IMG/VR virus record: IMGVR_UViG_3300025030_000395
Span: 1-25,193 of that record
From: a virus
Length of the DNA: 25,193 nucleotides
Direction: 5' to 3' (one strand)
The first letter of the stretch is position 1. Every line of letters starts with the position of its first letter. Below, one piece after another: positions 4,616 through 25,193 of the stretch. The notes under the pieces are model-generated. The model did no database searches. It saw nothing but the letters and a program-made list of their open reading frames with translations, and had not been told where the DNA came from. The position numbers and the translations under genes are program-made.

Positions 4616-5371
4616 TTACTCTATCCATTGTTTATTCCTGACAATGTTACTTATTTGTGTTTGATCTATCGTAAAAATTTCTTCTAATTGTTTTTGAGTG
4701 TAGTTTCCTGTTTTATACATCGCTCTTATTTCTCTAACTTTTTCCAAAGTTAATTTTGGATTGTTGCATTTTCTTTTTCTTTTTTTGTACGAAGAGGGTT
4801 TTTCTTCTACCCAAGTGTCATAATTAATAACATTTCTTAATGTTTTTTTATTAACAAAAGAATATTTTTTGTATATTTCTGTTAATTCGTTTTTTTCTAA
4901 AAAATATTCTTTTCTAATTTTTTCAACATCTTCTCGTTTAAGTTTCGCTCCTATAGGATTATCTATCAAATCTGTACGTTTTTTCCCAAACATTGGATGG
5001 TTTTCTCCAGACTGAATTCCAATGTGAGATTTACTCATTTTCTCTTTTTGCTCATTTGTGCGTTTTGTCCCCAATTGACTTCCAGCCGTTGGACATATAT
5101 TATATTCTGGATTTAAGATGTCCAAATAATATTGCTCTCTTTCAATGAGTTTTTCTTTTTCTTTAATTTCTTCAATAATTTCAAAAACAAAGTTTTCTTC
5201 TCCGTGTGTATTCCAAGAATTTTGTAAATGTTGAGAATGATGTTTATTGCTTTTCAAGCAACGAAAATGTTCTTTCTGTCGTTTAAATAAATTTATACTA
5301 CTTCCAATATAAATCTTTCCATTGACCAAATTACAAATTTTATATATTCCAGATTTTATATCTTTAAACAT
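4616..5371 (-). CDS. GIY-YIG homing endonuclease with C-terminal helix-turn-helix
   Basis: This 251-residue protein has GIY (8-10), YIG (21-23), Glu in EREQYYLD and Asn in PEYNIC, so the GIY-YIG catalytic set is present. Only about one NUMOD3-like module follows (LGTKRTNEQKEKMSKSHIG), unlike the arrays in two paralogues. The C-terminal 100 residues hold two helix-turn-helix-like segments, one starting near KLKREDVEKIRKEY and one near KLTLEKVREIRAMYKTG. An AAAGGTAG stretch directly before ATG 5371 is a plausible ribosome binding site. The gene lies 16 bases after the DNRLRE-like structural gene and 15 bases before the LamG/tail-I gene. It is probably a selfish intergenic endonuclease; the cleavage site is not known. 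Confidence 0.9.
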   Translation of the reverse strand: MFKDIKSGIYKICNLVNGKIYIGSSINLFKRQKEHFRCLKSNKHHSQHLQNSWNTHGEENFVFEIIEEIKEKEKLIEREQYYLDILNPEYNICPTAGSQLGTKRTNEQKEKMSKSHIGIQSGENHPMFGKKRTDLIDNPIGAKLKREDVEKIRKEYFLEKNELTEIYKKYSFVNKKTLRNVINYDTWVEEKPSSYKKRKRKCNNPKLTLEKVREIRAMYKTGNYTQKQLEEIFTIDQTQISNIVRNKQWIE

Positions 5372-6805: not shown

Positions 6806-7537
6806 TTATTCTTTCCAGATTTTATAACTTATTATGTGCTGAATGGTTGATTTAGCGACTTCATATTCGCACGCAAGTTTCAGTTGTGTATAATCCCCAG
6901 TTTTATACTTTTTTCTTATTTCATCAACTTTTTCCCAAGTAAGTTTCGAAAAATGATGTTTTTCGCCTTTTTTCGATTCTGACATTTTTTGTTTGGTTTC
7001 TTCAGAAAGATTTTTACCAAAATTATGATTTTTTTCACCTTTTGTCGATTTTGATATTTTTTGTTTGGTTTCTTCAGAAAGATTTTTACCAAAATTATGA
7101 TTTTTTTCTCCCATGCGAAGTTCAGATAATTTTTGTTTGACTTCTTCCGAAAGATGCTTTCCAAAAAAATGATGTTTTTCGCCCTTTCTCGATTCTGACA
7201 TTTTTTGTTTGGCTTCTTCTGTGAATTTAAGACCCAAAGTACTCCCCGCCGTCTTGCATATATTATATTCTGGCCTTAAAGCCTCTAAATAAAATTGCTC
7301 AGTTTCAATAAGATTTTCTCTCTCTTGCACTTCTTCGACAATTTCAAACAAAAAATTTTGTTCACCATGTTTATTCCAGGCTCTTTGCAACTTTCTATTT
7401 GGATGTTGGTCTTTTTTTAATTGTCTAAAATGATCCTTTTCTCTTCTTATTAACAAGACCGCACTTCCAATGTAAATCTTTCCATTAACCAAATTACGAA
7501 TTTGATATATTCCAGATTTTATTTCTTTATCGCTCAT
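6806..7537 (-). CDS. GIY-YIG homing endonuclease with four NUMOD3 repeats
   Basis: This 243-residue paralogue of the endonuclease at 1119-1904 shows GIY (9-11), YIG (22-24), Arg in RREKDHFR, Glu80 in ETEQFYLE and Asn92 in PEYNIC, which are the expected active-site residues. Residues 102-197 are four 24-residue NUMOD3 modules. The final part, beginning KLTWEKVDEIRKKYKTG, is a helix-turn-helix-like segment. The start is ATG 7537, one base after the stop of the gp6-like gene, with GAGGAAG upstream inside that gene. Its own end supplies the ribosome binding site of the 471-residue gene. Family assignment is strong; function as a homing endonuclease is by family knowledge. Confidence 0.9.
   Translation of the reverse strand: MSDKEIKSGIYQIRNLVNGKIYIGSAVLLIRREKDHFRQLKKDQHPNRKLQRAWNKHGEQNFLFEIVEEVQERENLIETEQFYLEALRPEYNICKTAGSTLGLKFTEEAKQKMSESRKGEKHHFFGKHLSEEVKQKLSELRMGEKNHNFGKNLSEETKQKISKSTKGEKNHNFGKNLSEETKQKMSESKKGEKHHFSKLTWEKVDEIRKKYKTGDYTQLKLACEYEVAKSTIQHIISYKIWKE
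6947..7234 (-). repeat. Four 72-bp tandem repeats encoding NUMOD3 modules
   Basis: This in-frame repeat array lies inside the GIY-YIG gene. Within it a 52-base stretch at 6985-7036 recurs without mismatch at 7057-7108, exactly 72 bases apart. This implies recent unit duplication. It is coding, not a CRISPR array. Confidence 0.85.
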
Positions 7538-9804: not shown

Positions 9805-10599
9805 TTAATGTTTATCAAATTCTAGTCGTTCTTTTGACAACTCACAATATTCGTTATTAATATCAATTCCTATAAAATTTCTATTGAGAATCTTTGCCAT
9901 TTTAAGAGTCGTCCCGCTGCCACAAAATGGATCAAGAACGGTGTCTCCTTCATTTGACCAGCTTAATATGTGATCTTCGGCTAGTTTTTCAGGAAAAATT
10001 GCTGGGTGTTGAAAAGCGATTTTATCTTTAGTGCTAAAACCCCTTCCAGTATTATATCGCCATATATTTGTTCTAATGCTATAGTCTGGTATTACTCTAT
10101 CGTTTTGTTTCTTAACTAATTGCTCACCATCGCCTTGACGAGTAGATAATTTACCCCAATATTTAGCACCAGCCCACCTATTTGGTCTGTCCTTTATGAG
10201 ATTTATCGTTTTCGGAGTTCCTTTGGAAAAGATAAACATATATTCAAATATTTGATAATACCTGTTTTTTGATGGAAATGATATTGAATTCTTTTCGTAA
10301 ATCATTGTATCGAATATCTTAAACCCAACTTCTTGAAAATGCAAAGCTTGTCGAAATGACGTTCCAGATTCTCCGCCGTCAACAACTGAGTCTCCGACAA
10401 CCCAAACAACAACTCCTCCTGGCTTTAGAACTCTATAAAGTTCAGAAACTAATCCGCAAAAATCAAACTCACTATTCTTTTTGTAAGAACGTAAATTGTC
10501 GTATGGAGGAGAAGTAACAACTAAATCAACAACTTCAGGAGTCAGTGCGCGCAAAACCTCTACATTATTGCCAACTACGACAGTATTGATTTCGTTCAT
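9805..10599 (-). CDS. Beta-class site-specific DNA methyltransferase (N4-cytosine or N6-adenine)
   Basis: This 264-residue enzyme would transfer a methyl group from S-adenosylmethionine to an exocyclic amino group in DNA. Catalytic motif IV TSPPY lies at residues 29-33. The AdoMet-binding motif DPFCGSGTT is at 223-231, after HPAIFPEKLAEDHI, and NFIGIDI follows at 241-247. The order IV then I defines the beta group. The TSPPY form is common among N4-cytosine enzymes, so m4C is favoured but m6A is possible. The region between the motifs (about 140-195) is the likely target-recognition part. The ATG at 10599 overlaps the TGA of the upstream nuclease by four bases (ATGA), so the two are translationally coupled. 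The recognition site is unknown. Confidence 0.93.
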   Translation of the reverse strand: MNEINTVVVGNNVEVLRALTPEVVDLVVTSPPYDNLRSYKKNSEFDFCGLVSELYRVLKPGGVVVWVVGDSVVDGGESGTSFRQALHFQEVGFKIFDTMIYEKNSISFPSKNRYYQIFEYMFIFSKGTPKTINLIKDRPNRWAGAKYWGKLSTRQGDGEQLVKKQNDRVIPDYSIRTNIWRYNTGRGFSTKDKIAFQHPAIFPEKLAEDHILSWSNEGDTVLDPFCGSGTTLKMAKILNRNFIGIDINNEYCELSKERLEFDKH

Positions 10600-11108
10600 T
10601 TTTCAGGAACTCCGTCAACAACATAAATCTTTTTGCATATTTTCAAATACTTTTCAATACGAACAAGAAAACCTCGCGCAGCCTTAATAGTACCGTACAT
10701 ATCGCCCATGGGCTTATCTTTTTCTACATAAAAAGATTCATCATTTAAGGCATTGACCAATTCTTGCCTATTGCATATGCCAATAGTTGTTTTTCTTTTT
10801 GTTAGATAATTTGGCATGGAAAACACATACTCGTCTGCGGTTGAAACAATTATGCCAGACGGCTCATTTATTCTATTGCAATATGTTTCTATTGCAATAT
10901 TTCCATACACGCAAGCAGAAAAATCAGTTTTGATTTCTTTGGTTACTCTTTCTAATGTTTCTTTCAAAAACCAGGAACCATCGTCAGTGTTGTGAAACCA
11001 ATCTGGGGATGAAACTGAATTGACAATATAGCCGATATCTTTTAACTTTTCTTCAACAAATATTTCACCAACTTTGCCACTTTTTAAATCTTCGTTAAAT
11101 GCCGCCAT
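10596..11108 (-). CDS. PD-(D/E)XK-type nuclease, putative restriction partner of the methyltransferase
   Basis: This 170-residue protein shows a PD-(D/E)XK layout: GKVGE with Glu15, a PD at 35-36 in SSPDWF, and the EIK triplet at 58-60 (KEIKTDF). These are followed by GNIAIET at 69-75, a pattern common in this fold. It ends four bases inside the methyltransferase start, so the two genes form a tight pair with the nuclease first. In this context a restriction endonuclease cutting unmethylated DNA is the simplest reading. A structure-specific nuclease or a DNA-degrading phage enzyme is an alternative. The start is ATG 11108, with no clear ribosome binding site. The fold is inferred from motifs only. 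Confidence 0.7.
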   Translation of the reverse strand: MAAFNEDLKSGKVGEIFVEEKLKDIGYIVNSVSSPDWFHNTDDGSWFLKETLERVTKEIKTDFSACVYGNIAIETYCNRINEPSGIIVSTADEYVFSMPNYLTKRKTTIGICNRQELVNALNDESFYVEKDKPMGDMYGTIKAARGFLVRIEKYLKICKKIYVVDGVPEK

Positions 11109-11155: not shown

Positions 11156-12109
11156 TTATTTTGCTTTTGGAATGTAAGATGGGTCGTGCCAGGATTTGTT
11201 GTTGAGAATCCTATTAATAGTAGACCAACAAACTTCAAATTTTTCTGACAAACAACTAGTTGGTAAACCAGTTCTATGCTCTTCTCTAATTTTATTAACA
11301 ATTTCCCAAGTTAATTTAGCTTTTGGATTATTTTCGCCAATCAATTTGCCATTCTTTTTTCTGGTTTGTTTTTGCTTTTCTATTGTTTCTTTTGAACGAG
11401 TTCTCCTACCATCAGATACTTCTACGAACTCATACAACGTATCGTACCAACTTTTGTTGTTAATTATTTTTTCAATATTCGAAGCGCTAATGCCAATATC
11501 CCTTGAAATAGATATCTTAGTAAAACCTAATTTATATTTCTCTCTAATTTGTCTAACAATTTCCCAAGTTAATTTAGCTTTCGGATTATTTTCGCCAGCA
11601 GTAATTCCAATACGAGATTTTGATATTTTTAATCTTGTTTCTTCCGAATGTAATTTTCCTTTCATAGTTGGAGGTCTTAGCTTTGCAGCATCAGACATTT
11701 TTTTCCTAACTTCTTCAGAAAAAATATTTTTTAAACCTTTATTCCACGGTGGATAAGTTTTTTTCTTTTTATTTGCTTCAGATATTTTTTTCTTTGTCTC
11801 GTCAGATCTTTTAACACCCAGACAAGAGCCAGCCACATTAGAAATATTATATTCTGGCGTTAGCGAATCTATCCAACACTGTTCTCTTTCAAGCAATTTT
11901 TCTTTGTTCGGCTCTATTTCTTCTATTATTTCAAATATAAAGTTTTCCTCTCCATCTTTATTCCATGCGTTTTGCAAATGCTTAGAATGATGTTTATTTC
12001 GTGTTAAAAGAAGTTTGTGTAAAGAAAATCTCTTCCTAAAATTAACAGTGCTTCCAATATAAACTTTTCCATTGACAATGTTTCTTATCTTGTATATTCC
12101 ACAGCTCAT
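11156..12109 (-). CDS. GIY-YIG homing endonuclease with duplicated helix-turn-helix modules
   Basis: This is the longest GIY-YIG protein here (317 residues from ATG 12109, 324 from ATG 12130). It has GIYKI, YIGST, RKRF, EREQCWID and PEYNIS, the full catalytic set. NUMOD3-like modules follow (VKRSDETKKKISEANK, LHSEETRLKISKSRIG). The C-terminal part then contains two copies of a roughly 50-residue unit, each starting ENNPKAKLTWEIV and ending INNKSW or LNNKSW, which look like duplicated helix-turn-helix binding units. ATG 12109 is preferred because it overlaps the TGA of the giant gene (ATGA), follows AAAGG, and puts GIY at the same distance as in the paralogues. It is probably a homing endonuclease. 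Confidence 0.9.
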   Translation of the reverse strand: MSCGIYKIRNIVNGKVYIGSTVNFRKRFSLHKLLLTRNKHHSKHLQNAWNKDGEENFIFEIIEEIEPNKEKLLEREQCWIDSLTPEYNISNVAGSCLGVKRSDETKKKISEANKKKKTYPPWNKGLKNIFSEEVRKKMSDAAKLRPPTMKGKLHSEETRLKISKSRIGITAGENNPKAKLTWEIVRQIREKYKLGFTKISISRDIGISASNIEKIINNKSWYDTLYEFVEVSDGRRTRSKETIEKQKQTRKKNGKLIGENNPKAKLTWEIVNKIREEHRTGLPTSCLSEKFEVCWSTINRILNNKSWHDPSYIPKAK

Positions 12110-15100
12110 TTTTTGCCTTTGTCTGGACATTTTATTTTGCCACCAAAACCAGAAAAGTCAATACCAAATTCCGCACCAATGTCATTTCTTTTGACTTCTT
12201 TACCTTGGGCGTCTGAGAATATATCGTCAATGTTTAGGGCCAGGTAGATAAACCCTAATGGCGAAATTGGAGCGCCGATTCCGATGCCCATCGGATAAGG
12301 CATGAAGACATTCATTGGCAATTGCCCCAACGATGCAACATGTATTGGCACGTTTTTGCCATTTGCCTTGGCAATATCAACAATTTTGCGAGCACGACTA
12401 ATGTTGGGGTCAATTAGCTCTACCAGGCCTTTTAAAATTAATATGGGAGTCCTAAGGGCCATCGCTGCCACATTAACCCCTGGCACCTTTGGATCCGTAT
12501 CGACATTGTTTATTGAAGTTGTATTAAGACCCGCATTACCTCCCATTTGCTCAATATACGCGTCTGAATATTGGTAATTGCCACTATTCAATAATAAACT
12601 AAAAACACTCTTTATCGCAATTTTTGTTCCTTCGAACAAATTTCTAACAGGTTCCAAATTAGACAAATACGTGATATTATACAACGACAATAACGAAAAC
12701 ATTCTATCAACTGGTATACAATAGCCAAAAATAAACTTATACTCTTCTGTCGCCAACAAAGATTCTCGTAATCTAGTTCTTTTGTCATTCCACAGAACGG
12801 TTATTACGCCTGGTACGTTAGTGTTTCTAGCTAAAAAGTTTATATCTTCTGGGATCTCTACGCATACAATTGGAAATTGGTATACTTCTCTGGTCCTTTG
12901 CTTTTGGTGTGTTTCGAAAGTTAAAGAGGATTGAACCAGCTCTGTAGTTTGTACTGATTCTTCAACAATAAATGACTTATTCAAATCGACTTCATTGTTT
13001 ATTTTTATTTTGTTTGACTCGGTATCTTTTAGTATTTCTCGAGAAACACTTTCTACGCTAGACAAAGTGCCAAATAATTTTTCTTCATTCAATGGCGGAA
13101 CGTAAACCAGTCTTAAACCAAAATGTAAACTTTCAATTATGTCTTCTAATTTTGTTCCATTTACAATTGTCTCGGGTAAAATAATCGTTTTTAATACTTG
13201 TTCGAAATCTTTTAGTCGTAGAACTCCAAATTGTCCTCTTTTTATTTTTCTTGACTCGGACAACAACGTTGCCTGTTGATCTGTTGTGGCCACGACAGCA
13301 TTAAGCAAACGATTAAATCTATCTTCTTCGTTTTTATAAGAAACCCTTACATATCTTTCCAAGATAAAATTTCCATTATCAAAACTAAAATTAACTCTTC
13401 CAGACAAAGATTCGGCATTTCTAATATTTTGAGCCAATGTTTCTTCTATTTCCGTTTGCTTAAAATCTCTAATCTGTAAAGACTTTTTTGTTTCAGACTT
13501 TACAAATCTTGGACCAGCAGCTTCCGATAAAATAGCTCTATCAGTATCAAACAATGGCAAATAATCACTAATCAATATTCTATCCAATTCTAATTGGTTG
13601 GTTCCGTCTGTTTTTTTCGCAAGAGAAGCTATTTGTTCGACAACTGATTTTATTTCTATATTAATGTAATAACGAGCGGCGATTTCGAAATTGTCTGTTT
13701 TATCCGCTTCTATTTCTCCCGTTTCGGCCGCTACATTATATGAAAGAAGTGTTTGTTCGGCAAACTGTTGAGCGAATTTATCATCTTTGGTGATTTCTCC
13801 AATATTCAAAAGTTCTTTATAAATCTTATTTGCAATGTAATTTACAATTGTCGAATCGATATCTTCAGAAATGTTTATTTTAAACTCTGAAAAAACGAAA
13901 ATAGTTCTCAAAATGTTTTCAATCGTAATCAACCGTACAAGCGTTCTAATCGCTCCATTAATTCCTTCTCGCTCCATCGAATTTGGAGTCTGCTTTCCCA
14001 ATCCATCTGTTGTTGGGAACAATGTCTCGACGCAAACATTATTCATCATTGCATCGCGCATTTTCATCTTTATATCATCCAAATTTAATAAATGTGGTCG
14101 ACATTTACCTGAAATCGAGTCTGGTGTAAAATCCAACAACGATAAAACTTTTAAATTAAACAATGGAGATTTCGATACCTGTTCCGCAAAGGAAGCAAAT
14201 GTATCAACAAACAAGTTCTTATAAGCAATTGTTTTGAACTCGTTTTTTAATTTTGTATCAATCTTGTTCAATAATTTTTCTGCCGCAACACCAACGGCAT
14301 AGTGAGGTTTCGAAACGGAAATTCCATTAATATAAATGGGCGCACCCTCTTTCCAAACCTTTGTTATAAAAGAACCAAAATAAGATTGTGGCAACGATGA
14401 TTCCATCTCAGGCTCAAAGACGCTCCTTTGCGGAACGTCATGTTCCAACTTTCTTGATTGAATAAAATTCAATACTTCTGGCTTTATTTCATCAACGGTA
14501 GCTACCGCCACTTCTGTTTCAACTATTTTATTATCACTTACGTCAAATTTCTGTATATCAATTGAATATTCATCTTTACCCTCTTTCAATAGATTCGAAG
14601 GTCTATATTGAATATAATACTCACTTATATTGGCAACGTCTTTTACATTCTTAAAGTTATTTATAGTTTTCAGTAATGTAGGGTCTTTTGTAACACTATT
14701 GATGTTTTTCAACAGAGTAGCACTAGACAATTTATTCACATCAATCATATTTGGAATAACGAAAGAAACATTTCCTCTCACATCAACATTGAAAAGCCTT
14801 TGATTTAATTGAATGTTTTTAAGATTTTCTTTAAGTCCGCGCGCGGCAAAACCAGTTGTAAACTGCATATCTTCGTAGACAATAACCGCTTCTTTGTCTA
14901 AATCTTCTGGTTCTTTTACCGAAACACCTTGCGAAATTAATCTTCTAAATTCTGGATTCTCTACTTCTTCTTTAAAGGTCTTACCATCTTCTGTAACGCC
15001 TTCTACGTTTATTTTTCTTTCTATCGCCCTTGGTATCTGAACCGCTGTAGTTTCTCTAAGTGCATTCGTGAAATTAGAAATCTCGTTATTAAATGTCATA

Positions 15101-17802: not shown

Positions 17803-18594
17803 TTATTTATTGCCTTTTTTAATATTCGTATGGATAAGCTTTTTACCTTTTTTTAAATTTGCCGTAGCTTCTAGTGGTCGTAAGTTCTCTAATGCCCAAC
17901 ATTTTTGAAAATTAGGATGTTCAAATGAATTGTATTTTAATGCCGATTGAGGGATAATGTGATCAACGTGCCAATAAGTTCCGTGATTTTCCCACGACAT
18001 ATTTTCATCAAATTGGTTTTCAATATGTTCTCGCAATTGTTTTGGAGTATAAGGCAATATTTTCCAAATTTTCCCATTTTTGCTAAATTTATTTTCTCTA
18101 AAGAATGTATTAATTCTGCCCACAACGCTTGTCATTAATTTAAATGCAGGATCTTTCTTTTTTCTTTCCCTGCATAAGAAATTCGTCCTCTCTTTTACTT
18201 TAAGGTCTTTTCGTCTATTTTTATCATATTGTTTTTTCTTTTCTTTTTGTTTTGATTGAGCATTTCTTTTTGCTTGATAAGAAAGTATATTATCTTTGTT
18301 TTCTCTATAATATTCTCTTTTTCTTTTTCTAACGTTGTCTATGTTTTTCTCTCTATATTCTTTTTCTCTTTTTGTTACTTTTTCTAAATTCTTAATTCTA
18401 TAATTTCTCACTCTCCTACAAACTTCTTCACCATTTTCATCATAACGCTTTTTGGCTTTCATTAAAATTTCTTCTCTATTTTCAAGATACTCTAATTTTC
18501 TGCAATCTTTGCATATACTTCTATATCCAATTCCTTTTCTGCCAAAATGTATCAAAAGTTTTTCAACTTTACACCTTGAACATGTTTTTTTCAT
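17803..18594 (-). CDS. HNH homing endonuclease with N-terminal zinc finger
   Basis: This 263-residue protein has a treble-clef-like N-terminus with C5xxC8 and C28xxC31. A long Lys/Arg/Asn-rich middle follows, with repeated 'YREN/KR' units that likely bind DNA. The C-terminal HNH nuclease shows Asp211-His212 in HVDHIIPQS, Asn237 in ENLRPLE and Asn246 in ANLKKGK. It is a paralogue of the HNH gene at 21137-21913. It begins 18 bases after the 310-residue spike-associated gene and ends six bases before the giant structural gene. The location is that of a free-standing homing endonuclease. The start is ATG 18594. Family assignment is strong; its target is unknown. Confidence 0.9.
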   Translation of the reverse strand: MKKTCSRCKVEKLLIHFGRKGIGYRSICKDCRKLEYLENREEILMKAKKRYDENGEEVCRRVRNYRIKNLEKVTKREKEYREKNIDNVRKRKREYYRENKDNILSYQAKRNAQSKQKEKKKQYDKNRRKDLKVKERTNFLCRERKKKDPAFKLMTSVVGRINTFFRENKFSKNGKIWKILPYTPKQLREHIENQFDENMSWENHGTYWHVDHIIPQSALKYNSFEHPNFQKCWALENLRPLEATANLKKGKKLIHTNIKKGNK

Positions 18595-21136: not shown

Positions 21137-21913
21137 TTATTTGTAATTATCTAAACATAATTTATTGCTTTTTATTATGTTCTCAATAGATTCCAACGGA
21201 CGTAAGTTGCTTAAAGACCAACATTTGATAAAATTTGGATGCTCAAACGAGTCATACAGAAGGCTCGACTGTGGAATAATGTGGTCAATTTGCCACGTCC
21301 TCTTTTCAGAACTGATTTTTCCATAGTTATTCCAACTCATCCAAGGTTCCCAAAGCGATTCAAGATGCTCCTTAAGTTGTTGTGGCGTGTAAGTAAGTTT
21401 AGACCATGTAGAGCAATTTTTTGATGCACGTCTATTGCAAAGCGCGTGCCAAACAGAACTAGAAACCGATTTCCTCAATCTAAAAGACAAATCTTCTTTG
21501 CTTTTTATTTTAGTTCTGTCATTATTACGTTTTTTGTTTTCTTCCGAAGAGCGATAAATTTTGTTATATTTTTTAGTTTTTTCTTTGTTATTATTGCGAT
21601 AGTTCTTTTGATATTCTTTTATTTTGTCTTTGTTTTTTTCACAATAATTTGCACTACTCTCAATAATTTTCTCTTTATTATTATCGCGATATAGTTTCTG
21701 ACTATTTTTCAATGTCTCTTTATTGTCTTGATAATAATCTTTATTACGTTCTTTTACTTTTTGACCGTTATTTTCGCAATAATTCTTATCATATGCTCTC
21801 TTGCAATCTTTACACATTTGTGTTAAGCCATCTAGATTATTCTTATTTCTATGAAAATTGTCCAATGGTTTAATTTCATCGCATTTTGAACATCGCTTTG
21901 AATCGCAGAACAT
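21137..21913 (-). CDS. HNH homing endonuclease with N-terminal zinc finger and Asn/Lys repeats
   Basis: This 258-residue paralogue of the HNH gene at 17803-18594 has the zinc-binding pairs C8xxC11 and C34xxC37. Residues about 40-140 then repeat a roughly 20-residue Asn/Lys-rich unit with 'YY..N' and 'YR.NN' cores. The HNH site follows at Asp210-His211 (IDHIIPQS), Asn236 (SNLRPLE) and Asn245. The gene starts at ATG 21913, 12 bases after the sigma-factor stop, and precedes the coiled-coil gene. It is probably a selfish endonuclease inserted at the end of the sigma gene. The plus-strand complement of the Asn/Lys repeats gives spurious open frames. Confidence 0.9.
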   Translation of the reverse strand: MFCDSKRCSKCDEIKPLDNFHRNKNNLDGLTQMCKDCKRAYDKNYCENNGQKVKERNKDYYQDNKETLKNSQKLYRDNNKEKIIESSANYCEKNKDKIKEYQKNYRNNNKEKTKKYNKIYRSSEENKKRNNDRTKIKSKEDLSFRLRKSVSSSVWHALCNRRASKNCSTWSKLTYTPQQLKEHLESLWEPWMSWNNYGKISSEKRTWQIDHIIPQSSLLYDSFEHPNFIKCWSLSNLRPLESIENIIKSNKLCLDNYK

Positions 21914-23407: not shown

Positions 23408-23408
23408 C

Positions 23409-23761
23409 TTAATCTCCTTTTGTAATCAATCTCGCGTACAATTCTGTAACCGTCAATAATTCTGAATGTTCCAAAGCAATCATTTGATGTCGTAAGCCTG
23501 GATAAACATGAACTGTATCTCCTGGTCTCATAATAATTGTTTCCGCCAAGTCCAAGTCGTCTTACTCGGATAACTTTACAGCCGAACAACCAGTATGCAA
23601 CAAGAAGACTTCATCTTTTAAAAGATGATAGTGGAGGGAGCATTTTTTCCTTTTTCGAAAACCAACAATTTACCACAGTATTCTGGCTTATTGACTGCCC
23701 AAAATTCCGAGCGCCATCCTTTATTTACAGAATGTGTTTTATTTTCCCATTTTTTCGTCAT
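23409..23761 (-). pseudogene. Degraded cupin (mannose-6-phosphate-isomerase-like) gene with frameshift and nonsense lesion
   Basis: Reading from ATG 23761 gives MTKKWENK and then KGWRSEFWAVNKPEYCGKLL, the usual start of small sugar-nucleotide cupins. It stops at codon 48 (TAA near 23618). In the -1 frame the protein continues as KKCSLHYHLLKDEVFLLHTG, the metal-binding cupin core, reaches an in-frame TAA near DDLDLAE, then resumes as MRPGDTVHVYPGLRHQMIAL to KGD and a stop at 23409. The frame change maps to a run of six A at A_AAA_AAT. Two separate lesions make a functional product unlikely. The start overlaps the HAD gene by 23 bases and follows GGAGAT at 23766-23771. A longer frame of 61 codons (23404-23589) in this stretch is only a by-product. 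Sequencing error at the A run could account for one lesion. Confidence 0.8.
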
Positions 23762-24086
23762 TTAAATCTCCAAAATATTCCTTATCGTTCATAGCTTTAT
23801 CATCAATCCAATGATCGTAACATGGCTTCCCGAGCTTCACTTCATGATACTTCGCTCCCCAGCTATCAAGTTGCTTCTTTGTGAAGTCAAAAAATCCTCG
23901 ATATGCCTTTTCAACAACTTCACAATATTCACTCATACCTCGCGCGGTCCAATAAATTATTATATGTCCTTCATCATAGAGTTTATTTATTTTTTCTATT
24001 CTGTTTTTGTAAGGAACGGCATTTTCATAATCACCTTCTGTCCTAGAACAGATTGTTCCATCAATGTCTACTATGTAAATTGCCAT
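23739..24086 (-). CDS. Small HAD-superfamily phosphatase, second copy
   Basis: This 115-residue protein has HAD motif I DIDGT (nucleophile Asp7, Asp9), motif II at Thr47 in YWTARG, Lys87 in KLGKPCYD and motif IV at Asp95-Asp96 in HWIDDKA. It should hydrolyse a phosphate from a small molecule, plausibly a sugar phosphate given its neighbours. It is a close paralogue of the copy at 24207-24578, sharing IDDKAM and the LYDEGH..IYYT/YWTARGM run. The start is ATG 24086, directly after a remnant of a nucleotidyltransferase gene. It is shorter than GmhB-type heptose phosphatases, so the substrate is uncertain. It overlaps the cupin pseudogene. Confidence 0.9.
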   Translation of the reverse strand: MAIYIVDIDGTICSRTEGDYENAVPYKNRIEKINKLYDEGHIIIYWTARGMSEYCEVVEKAYRGFFDFTKKQLDSWGAKYHEVKLGKPCYDHWIDDKAMNDKEYFGDLNDEKMGK

Positions 24087-24087
24087 G

Positions 24088-24162
24088 CTCTAAAATCCTT
24101 GCTGTAGAATATCCACGAATTCTATCAAAGTAAACAATTTCTTTACAATACTCTTCCTCAAC
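24088..24162 (-). pseudogene. Remnant of a second nucleotidyltransferase C-terminus
   Basis: In one frame, 25 codons from 24162 to 24088 align without gaps to the C-terminal segment of the intact nucleotidyltransferase (residues about 106-130). Fourteen of 25 residues are identical, including Cys, Arg and a GYST..ILE block. The frame has a stop a few codons upstream and no start. It ends exactly where the second HAD gene begins, the same junction as in the intact pair. It is therefore read as a fossil of a duplicated transferase gene. Confidence 0.7.
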
Positions 24163-24214
24163 CCTTGTTGATGATTTCTATTGGTTTAAGTTCGTATTTT
24201 TTCATATTATTCAT
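24158..24214 (-). pseudogene. Short frame resembling a cupin N-terminus (deletion scar)
   Basis: An 18-codon frame (MNNMKKYELKPIEIINKG, then TGA) overlaps the end of the first HAD gene. Its ending, NKG, and the KK(Y/W)E pattern resemble the N-terminus of the cupin pseudogene (MTKKWENKTHSVNKG), which overlaps the end of the second HAD gene in the same way. It is joined to the transferase remnant, as if a deletion fused the two. The match is very short. Confidence 0.4.
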
Positions 24215-24578
24215 TTTCAAAAAATTCCTTAAATGTCATAGCTTTATCATCAATCCAATGATCGTAACATAACTTGCCGAGTCGTAACTTGGTATATTTT
24301 GCACCCCAACCATCCAATTGTGATTTGGTTAAATTATACATGAAAGTATAAGCTTTTTTAACATTTCCATTAAATCTTTTCATTCCGCGAGAAGTATAAT
24401 AAATTATAACATGGCCTTCGTCATAAAGTCTATTAATTCTAATAATTTTATCTCTAAACGGAACAGCTTTTAAATAATCTTCTCCATCTTTCGTCTGAGA
24501 ACAAATTATTCCATCGATATCAACGCAATAGGTTTTTTTATACCTATTTTTCTCGTCATTTTGCTCTTTATTTTCCAT
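24207..24578 (-). CDS. Small HAD-superfamily phosphatase, first copy
   Basis: This 123-residue protein (from ATG 24578) has a DIDG nucleophile motif, YYTSRGM as motif II, LGKLCYDHWIDDKAM for motifs III and IV, and an acidic end. It is a phosphatase paralogue of the gene at 23739-24086. ATG 24578 is favoured because the second copy begins at the matching junction after GYST..ILE. It overlaps the nucleotidyltransferase by 11 bases. A TTG at 24626 behind a perfect ribosome binding site (24633-24640) would add 16 residues. The function is likely to dephosphorylate a sugar intermediate made by the neighbouring kinase and transferase, but this is contextual. Confidence 0.9.
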   Translation of the reverse strand: MENKEQNDEKNRYKKTYCVDIDGIICSQTKDGEDYLKAVPFRDKIIRINRLYDEGHVIIYYTSRGMKRFNGNVKKAYTFMYNLTKSQLDGWGAKYTKLRLGKLCYDHWIDDKAMTFKEFFENE

Positions 24579-24975
24579 TTCTATATTCGAGTATACTACT
24601 CGTCGAATATCCTTCAAGCCTTTCAAAAAACTTCACCTCCCCACAATGTTCTTCACCAACAATCTTTTTACCCTTCCAATCAGAGCCAGCAACGCGAATA
24701 TCTGGCTTTACGTCGCTCAATAGTTTTACCAATTCTTCTTCTGAATTAAAAATAACGACTCGGTCAATATATTTGATAGATTCCAAAACAAATTTTCTGT
24801 CCTCTTGATGAAAGAACGGCCTATCTTCACCTTTGTCTTTTTTTACTTTTTCATCTGAATCAATTGCAACAATCAAGTAGCATCCGAGAGACTTGGCATA
24901 TTTTAAAATCTCAATATGCCCTTTGTGCAATAAATCATAGGCACCAGAAACAAACACAACACTCTTTTCATTCAT
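24568..24975 (-). CDS. Cytidylyltransferase-fold sugar-phosphate nucleotidyltransferase (HldE C-domain-like)
   Basis: This 135-residue enzyme joins a nucleotide to a sugar phosphate. It has the GAYDLLHKGH start with the HxGH motif at 17-20, a VAIDSD segment, VAGSDW, and the closing GYSTSSI (122-128) that is typical of the RfaE/HldE C-terminal and GlmU-like cytidylyltransferase fold. The length is that of the stand-alone domain. It overlaps the kinase gene by eight bases at 24968-24975, so the two halves of a bifunctional HldE appear as separate, coupled genes. The activated product could be ADP-heptose or a related nucleotide sugar; the nucleotide used cannot be told from sequence. Confidence 0.9.
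   Translation of the reverse strand: MNEKSVVFVSGAYDLLHKGHIEILKYAKSLGCYLIVAIDSDEKVKKDKGEDRPFFHQEDRKFVLESIKYIDRVVIFNSEEELVKLLSDVKPDIRVAGSDWKGKKIVGEEHCGEVKFFERLEGYSTSSILEYRNGK
24633..24640 (-). promoter_or_regulatory. Perfect Shine-Dalgarno inside the nucleotidyltransferase gene
   Basis: GGAGGTGA, matching the full anti-Shine-Dalgarno of 16S rRNA, lies six bases before a TTG at 24626 in the HAD frame. It could serve that start or help reinitiation at ATG 24578. It may also be incidental, since it codes for the transferase residues Gly-Glu-Val. Confidence 0.35.
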
Positions 24976-25193
24976 CGTTTAATTCTTCTTTATTGATAAC
25001 AGTAACGCCGCGCTGTTGAACAGCATATGTTGCACACGTGTTGGCAAATTTAATAGCAACTTCAATGTCTTTTGTTTCAATGTATTTTACAACCAAACCA
25101 CTAAGAAAAACATCACCAGCGCCTGCGACGTCAACAGTTGTAATCTTTGGAACTGGATATGACATCCCTTTATATAAAGCTCCATCTGGTCCA
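24968..25193 (-). CDS. PfkB-family sugar kinase, HldE N-domain-like (5' end beyond window)
   Basis: The frame is open through the right edge, and only the C-terminal part is visible. It carries GPDGALYKG, YPVPKITTVDVAGAGDVFLS and IKFANTCATYAVQQRGVTVI. DVAGAGD is the anion-hole/catalytic motif of PfkB kinases, with the Asp of GAGD as catalytic base. The FAN.CA..AVQ..GV tail is typical of heptose-7-phosphate kinase (RfaE/HldE N-domain). An internal ATG at 25165 is not the start, since the frame continues upstream in good PfkB sequence. It couples to the nucleotidyltransferase by an eight-base overlap. The specific sugar is inferred from the pairing, not proven. Confidence 0.85.
   Translation of the reverse strand, partial: GPDGALYKGMSYPVPKITTVDVAGAGDVFLSGLVVKYIETKDIEVAIKFANTCATYAVQQRGVTVINKEELNDE

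Follow-up and report, generated by a model that had tools for sequence, protein, structure and literature searches.

Proposed sources of diversity among T4-related phages include ectopic insertion and illegitimate recombination (Petrov et al. 2010, PMC2993671), and the formation of mosaics by divergence-tolerant recombinases has been shown for temperate phages (De Paepe et al. 2014, PMC3945230). The locus described here lies in the window, the whole stretch of 25,193 nucleotides of viral DNA that we analyzed, and resembles the mosaic joints of tailed phages (PMC3945230, PMC2993671) in combining a recently exchanged fragment, diverged flanks and a new joint inside genes. In contrast to those mosaics, the exchange in the window would have been out of register, a second HAD gene was added instead of the first being replaced, and two gene stumps were left behind. 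The late genes around the exchanged block are of the T4 type (phrog_234 late sigma factor, baseplate wedge proteins).

With regard to gene content, the locus is comparable to the heptose-type nucleotide-sugar cassettes of the cyanophages P-SSM2, S-SM2, S-CAM3 and S-T4, which are composed of a kinase, a nucleotidyltransferase, a HAD gene annotated as phosphoheptose isomerase and a cupin. The neighboring families are the same, and the HAD gene is likewise followed by an overlapping cupin. In the window the order is kinase-transferase-HAD-cupin, with the HAD gene doubled and both cupins broken, whereas most of the fetched viral loci show the order transferase-kinase-HAD-cupin.

Gene content at the right end of the window

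On the minus strand, the right end of the window reads kinase (cut by the end), nucleotidyltransferase NT1, HAD2, a gap, HAD1, a broken cupin and late genes. The first HAD gene in reading direction is therefore HAD2, which carries a cupin fossil at its end, and HAD1 comes after a transferase fossil (NT2). The individual features are given below; L006 and G002 denote contigs of a related phage that served for comparison.

24968..25193, minus strand: sugar kinase (HldE domain I / PfkB type), 3' part only, putative resident; 78% amino acid identity to the L006 kinase, whose full-length sequence matches PfkB, with rfaE_dom_I below cutoff
24568..24975, minus strand: NT1, intact heptose-1-phosphate-type nucleotidyltransferase, putative resident orthologue; CTP_transf_like, with rfaE_dom_II below cutoff
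24207..24578, minus strand: HAD2, intact small HAD phosphatase, putative resident orthologue according to the tree; phrog_1238, with EcbF-BcbF below cutoff
24158..24214, minus strand: N-terminal fossil of the putative resident cupin, MNNMKKYELKPIEIINKG followed by a stop; top match of the cupin N-terminus profile, overlap with the HAD2 end
24076..24157, minus strand: NT2, C-terminal fossil of a second, putatively foreign transferase; over 33 amino acids 91% identical to the L006 transferase and 48% to NT1, also placed by DNA alignment
23739..24086, minus strand: HAD1, intact small HAD phosphatase, predicted import from a G002-like phage; 98% amino acid and 98.0% nucleotide identity to G002
23737..24162, minus strand: block of predicted recent import (true joint near 24157); 97.4% identity over 426 bp against a background of 61-71%
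about 23409..23761, minus strand: cupin pseudogene after HAD1, from reading of the frames; phrog_7851, weak Cupin_2 match

NT1 gave a near full-length match to NCBIfam TIGR02199 at 123 bits, below the cutoff of 181.5, and is related to HldE domain II (heptose 1-phosphate adenylyltransferase), with a putative substrate. Together, kinase and transferase resemble the two HldE domains (TIGR02198 and TIGR02199, both below their cutoffs). HAD1 and HAD2 reached 46.8 and 33.9 bits, respectively, against TIGR01689 (EcbF-BcbF capsule phosphatase), under the cutoff of 162, and both match phrog_1238 strongly; the cupin belongs to phrog_7851. Where phage records use the names "phosphoheptose isomerase" and "cysteine dioxygenase", these are labels from annotation and do not agree with the HAD and cupin domains. 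Upstream of the locus, L006 encodes a GDP-mannose 4,6-dehydratase-like protein and a DegT aminotransferase. Judging from these gene families, we take the product of the cassette to be, probably, an activated, heptose-like sugar for a surface glycan.

The gap between the two HAD genes (24079-24214, minus strand) consists of 18 codons of a cupin N-terminus fused to about 26 codons of a nucleotidyltransferase C-terminus, the transferase part lying in a matched open stretch of 33 codons. Translated on the minus strand, the transferase frame reads VEEEYCKEIVYFDRIRGYSTARILEHGNLHSRH and pairs without gaps with the C-terminal end of the intact transferase, VGEEHCGEVKFFERLEGYSTSSILEYRN. A count by eye gave identity at 15 of 28 positions, close to the 14 of 25 given by an earlier sequence-only reading, and when the intact transferase was searched against the record, 24079-24177 matched at 48% identity (E 3.3e-6). 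The remnant proposed in that reading is thus real. Its end overlaps the start of HAD1 as NT1 overlaps HAD2, and the related phage shows the same arrangement; the same reading had the remnant end exactly at the start of this HAD gene, as in the intact pair. The motif AAGGA is located within the stump, ahead of the HAD1 ATG.

The second frame of the gap reads MNNMKKYELKPIEIINKG*GR, that is, 18 codons ending in INKG followed by a stop. Its ATG (24214 or 24205) overlaps the HAD2 end, just as the cupins of relatives begin inside the end of the HAD gene. From the N-termini of 49 cupins at other viral loci, we derived a position-specific matrix around the KGWG motif; in the whole window (50,322 six-frame positions), its top score was that of PIEIINKG*GR in the gap, with 13.3 bits compared to 9.3 bits for the runner-up. 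This bears out the earlier proposal of an 18-codon cupin N-terminus overlapping the end of the first HAD gene. The stop sits where relatives have the conserved Trp of KGWG. Neither fossil is a usable gene. A conserved small gene in the gap, which the sequence-only reading had named as the alternative to its fossils, was rejected, since no ATG, GTG or TTG start was seen ahead in the transferase frame and the cupin frame stops after 18 codons.

A block nearly identical to a related phage

A comparison of HAD1 with viral contigs yielded two contigs at 98% amino acid identity, L006 (87.8 kb) and L007 (201 kb), which have the same sequence across the locus and come from different metagenome accessions. 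The larger contig, referred to as G002, was used for the syntenic comparison of the whole window. Both L006 and L007 have a kinase, an intact transferase and a HAD gene, a single copy of each and arranged in this order, at the syntenic position preceding the same late genes. Positions 23737-24162 of the window, comprising the transferase fossil, all of HAD1 and the sequence up to the eighth cupin codon, are 97.4% identical to L006 over 426 bases, whereas all other syntenic stretches of the 25-kb window are only 61-71% identical to G002. Within the block, 11 sites differ from G002. In HAD1, identity at third codon positions amounts to 96.5%, compared to 38-58% in 15 other gene pairs between window and G002 (binomial tail under the highest background value about 9e-22). 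Selection on the protein therefore does not account for the similarity, and compared with the separation of the two phages the exchange was recent. The block thus has the properties of a mosaic joint, in that high identity is bounded by low identity and synonymous sites are as conserved as the block itself.

The remaining copies diverge from G002 like the backbone. NT1 and the G002 transferase share 54% of amino acids and 43% of third positions, HAD2 and the G002 HAD 60% and 55%, so that NT1 and HAD2 represent resident orthologues. In the HAD tree, HAD1 and the G002 HAD form a pair (100/84) with HAD2 as sister to that pair (95/88), and in the transferase tree NT1 is sister to the G002 transferase (97/89). 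HAD1 and HAD2 themselves share 56% of amino acids. Since HAD1 and the transferase stump are near-identical to G002 while the residents show backbone divergence, they point to an import from a G002-like phage. On these sequence comparisons, the second copy was acquired recently by horizontal transfer (a xenologue) and did not arise by duplication in place. The branch of HAD2 is long (1.31, compared to 0.34 for the HAD1/G002 stem); HAD2 is perhaps evolving faster.

As to the direction of the transfer, we infer it from the G002 transferase being whole and the second one of the window being cut. The same direction is suggested by the donor-type unit, which two contigs of separate metagenome accessions carry in one intact piece, the truncated joint being present in the window only. 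The G002 kinase as query returned the same two contigs and no others, and the G002 transferase gave further relatives at 44-51% only. Among bacterial genomes, HAD1 found relatives at 39-51% only, and no host or closer donor emerged. Peptide patterns of HAD2 gave no usable match in viral sequences, a 310-aa late gene of the window had no relative in cultured phages, and the cupin produced only short 77% DNA matches there.

At the joint, donor-matching sequence begins at 24156, past mismatches at 24157-24158 and a GTTG overlap, and in the resident cupin the joint falls where the Trp of KGWG is found in relatives. A short-homology or end-joining event may have produced it, the GTTG overlap being too short to name or prove a mechanism. 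As an exact 29-base pattern, the joint was absent from every other viral contig searched. The right end of the identity block is where G002 has lost its own cupin; consequently, the right crossover falls at some point within 23408-23736.

The cupin behind HAD1 carries a frame shift near 23642 and an in-frame stop near 23562, so that no intact cupin is visible at the locus. Its first codons are donor-derived. The two cupin N-termini of the window are unlike in sequence, as expected of a resident and a donor allele. In G002 the cupin is deleted, with its first eight codons fused to the next gene (MTKKWENK-KLQFTPQAVGS, L006 4326-4544). This deletion and the broken cupins of the window suggest that the cupin is dispensable in the clade of the window and G002.

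Further differences from G002 were observed elsewhere in the window. Six free-standing homing-endonuclease-like genes (1119-1910, 4616-5371, 6806-7537, 11156-12130, 17803-18594 and 21137-21913; four GIY-YIG/NUMOD3, two endonuclease VII/HNH-like) are found between late genes that directly adjoin one another in G002, with empty sites within tens of bases. The first GIY-YIG gene (1119-1910) has five NUMOD3 motif stretches, more than the others in the window. Co-conversion of the imported block by a homing endonuclease was considered and is not supported, the nearest such gene being about 1.8 kb off. In addition, at 9805-11108, an N6/N4 DNA methyltransferase adjoins an unknown 170-aa gene (weak phrog_13596) in an insertion that G002 lacks, beside a baseplate wedge gene; the two are possibly a modification pair.

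Competing histories of the locus

Altogether, the locus can be read as two transferase-HAD-cupin units joined through a break, and in this respect the order of two truncated units in the sequence-only reading is right. That reading had explained them by a tandem duplication within the lineage and an internal deletion joining the first cupin to the second transferase. Such a history fits the fused fossil and the way the pieces are ordered, and in the tree HAD2 and the pair of HAD1 and the G002 HAD are mutually nearest kin (95/88). However, HAD1 and the transferase stump are 97.4% identical at the DNA level to the single-copy genes of another phage, whereas the supposed partner copies share only 56% (HAD) and 48% (transferase) of their protein sequence. 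With HAD1 at 98% to the G002 HAD and the stump at 91% to the G002 transferase, the supposed duplicates are not each other's nearest relatives, which effectively excludes duplication within the lineage as the origin of the two HAD genes. An intact doubled unit did not occur among the loci in the gene-order scan, an absence that says little given how few near relatives there are. A duplication that predates the split of window and G002, followed by an exchange that made HAD1 and the G002 HAD alike, would account for HAD2 being the sister of both; it is just as hard to credit, because a recent transfer is still required and G002 has one unit only.

Very probably, the locus is instead a recombination scar, in which a G002-like piece was imported out of register into the resident operon. 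That the scar is an artifact, with reads of a coexisting G002-like phage misjoined into the contig during assembly, seems highly improbable. The window is indeed a metagenomic viral contig, its exact joint is found in no other viral contig, and the cupin has two lesions. Against this, the flanks share about 4 nt at the joint while false assembly joins normally need a long exact word, the block and G002 disagree at 11 sites, and the other compared genes are open. A rather less unlikely possibility, and a variant of the import itself, is a history in two steps, in which the resident unit first gained a complete foreign unit as its neighbor and a later deletion took the 3' part of the resident cupin and the 5' part of the foreign transferase. 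It leads to the same end product and keeps the deletion step of the sequence-only reading on top of the import itself, which is shown, but it needs an extra event, and no intermediate with two full units appeared in the gene-order scan.

The simplest history is a single exchange in which the same operon of two phages recombined out of register. The ancestor of the window would have carried a kinase-NT1-HAD2-cupin operon, composed of gene families that are common neighbors in viral contigs. A related phage, whose kinase-NT2-HAD1-(cupin) operon occupied the corresponding place in its genome, may have supplied DNA out of register, presumably on the occasion of a coinfection. The resident cupin would thereby have been cut near codon 18 and joined to the final ~26 codons of the donor's transferase. 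From there, the incoming tract would extend across HAD1 into the beginning of the donor cupin, returning to resident sequence between 23736 and 23408. The outcome would be tandem HAD genes (resident HAD2, foreign HAD1), an intact transferase, a transferase stump, a cupin stump and a further broken cupin. The transferase stump probably persists because the event is recent and because the stump holds the ribosome-binding sequence of HAD1, for which it may act as a leader. The fossils, the identity block, the contrast with the backbone, the orthology and the damage to the cupins are shown by the sequences, whereas the coinfection, the direction of the transfer, the number of steps and the leader role are proposed. 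We see about even chances that one crossover created the tandem HAD pair in a single step and left the ribosome-binding site of the foreign copy inside the stump of a neighboring gene.

Significance for phage gene duplication

The locus is a clean but ordinary instance of phage mosaicism with unusually legible debris. It provides a well-preserved, recent case of a phage gaining a second gene copy from a relative, in which both stumps and the donor-type allele can still be read. Adjacent paralogues and gene fossils in one phage thus call for caution, and need comparison with relatives before a tandem duplication is assumed. If the proposed history is true, an apparent gene duplication in a phage genome can be an allelic import.
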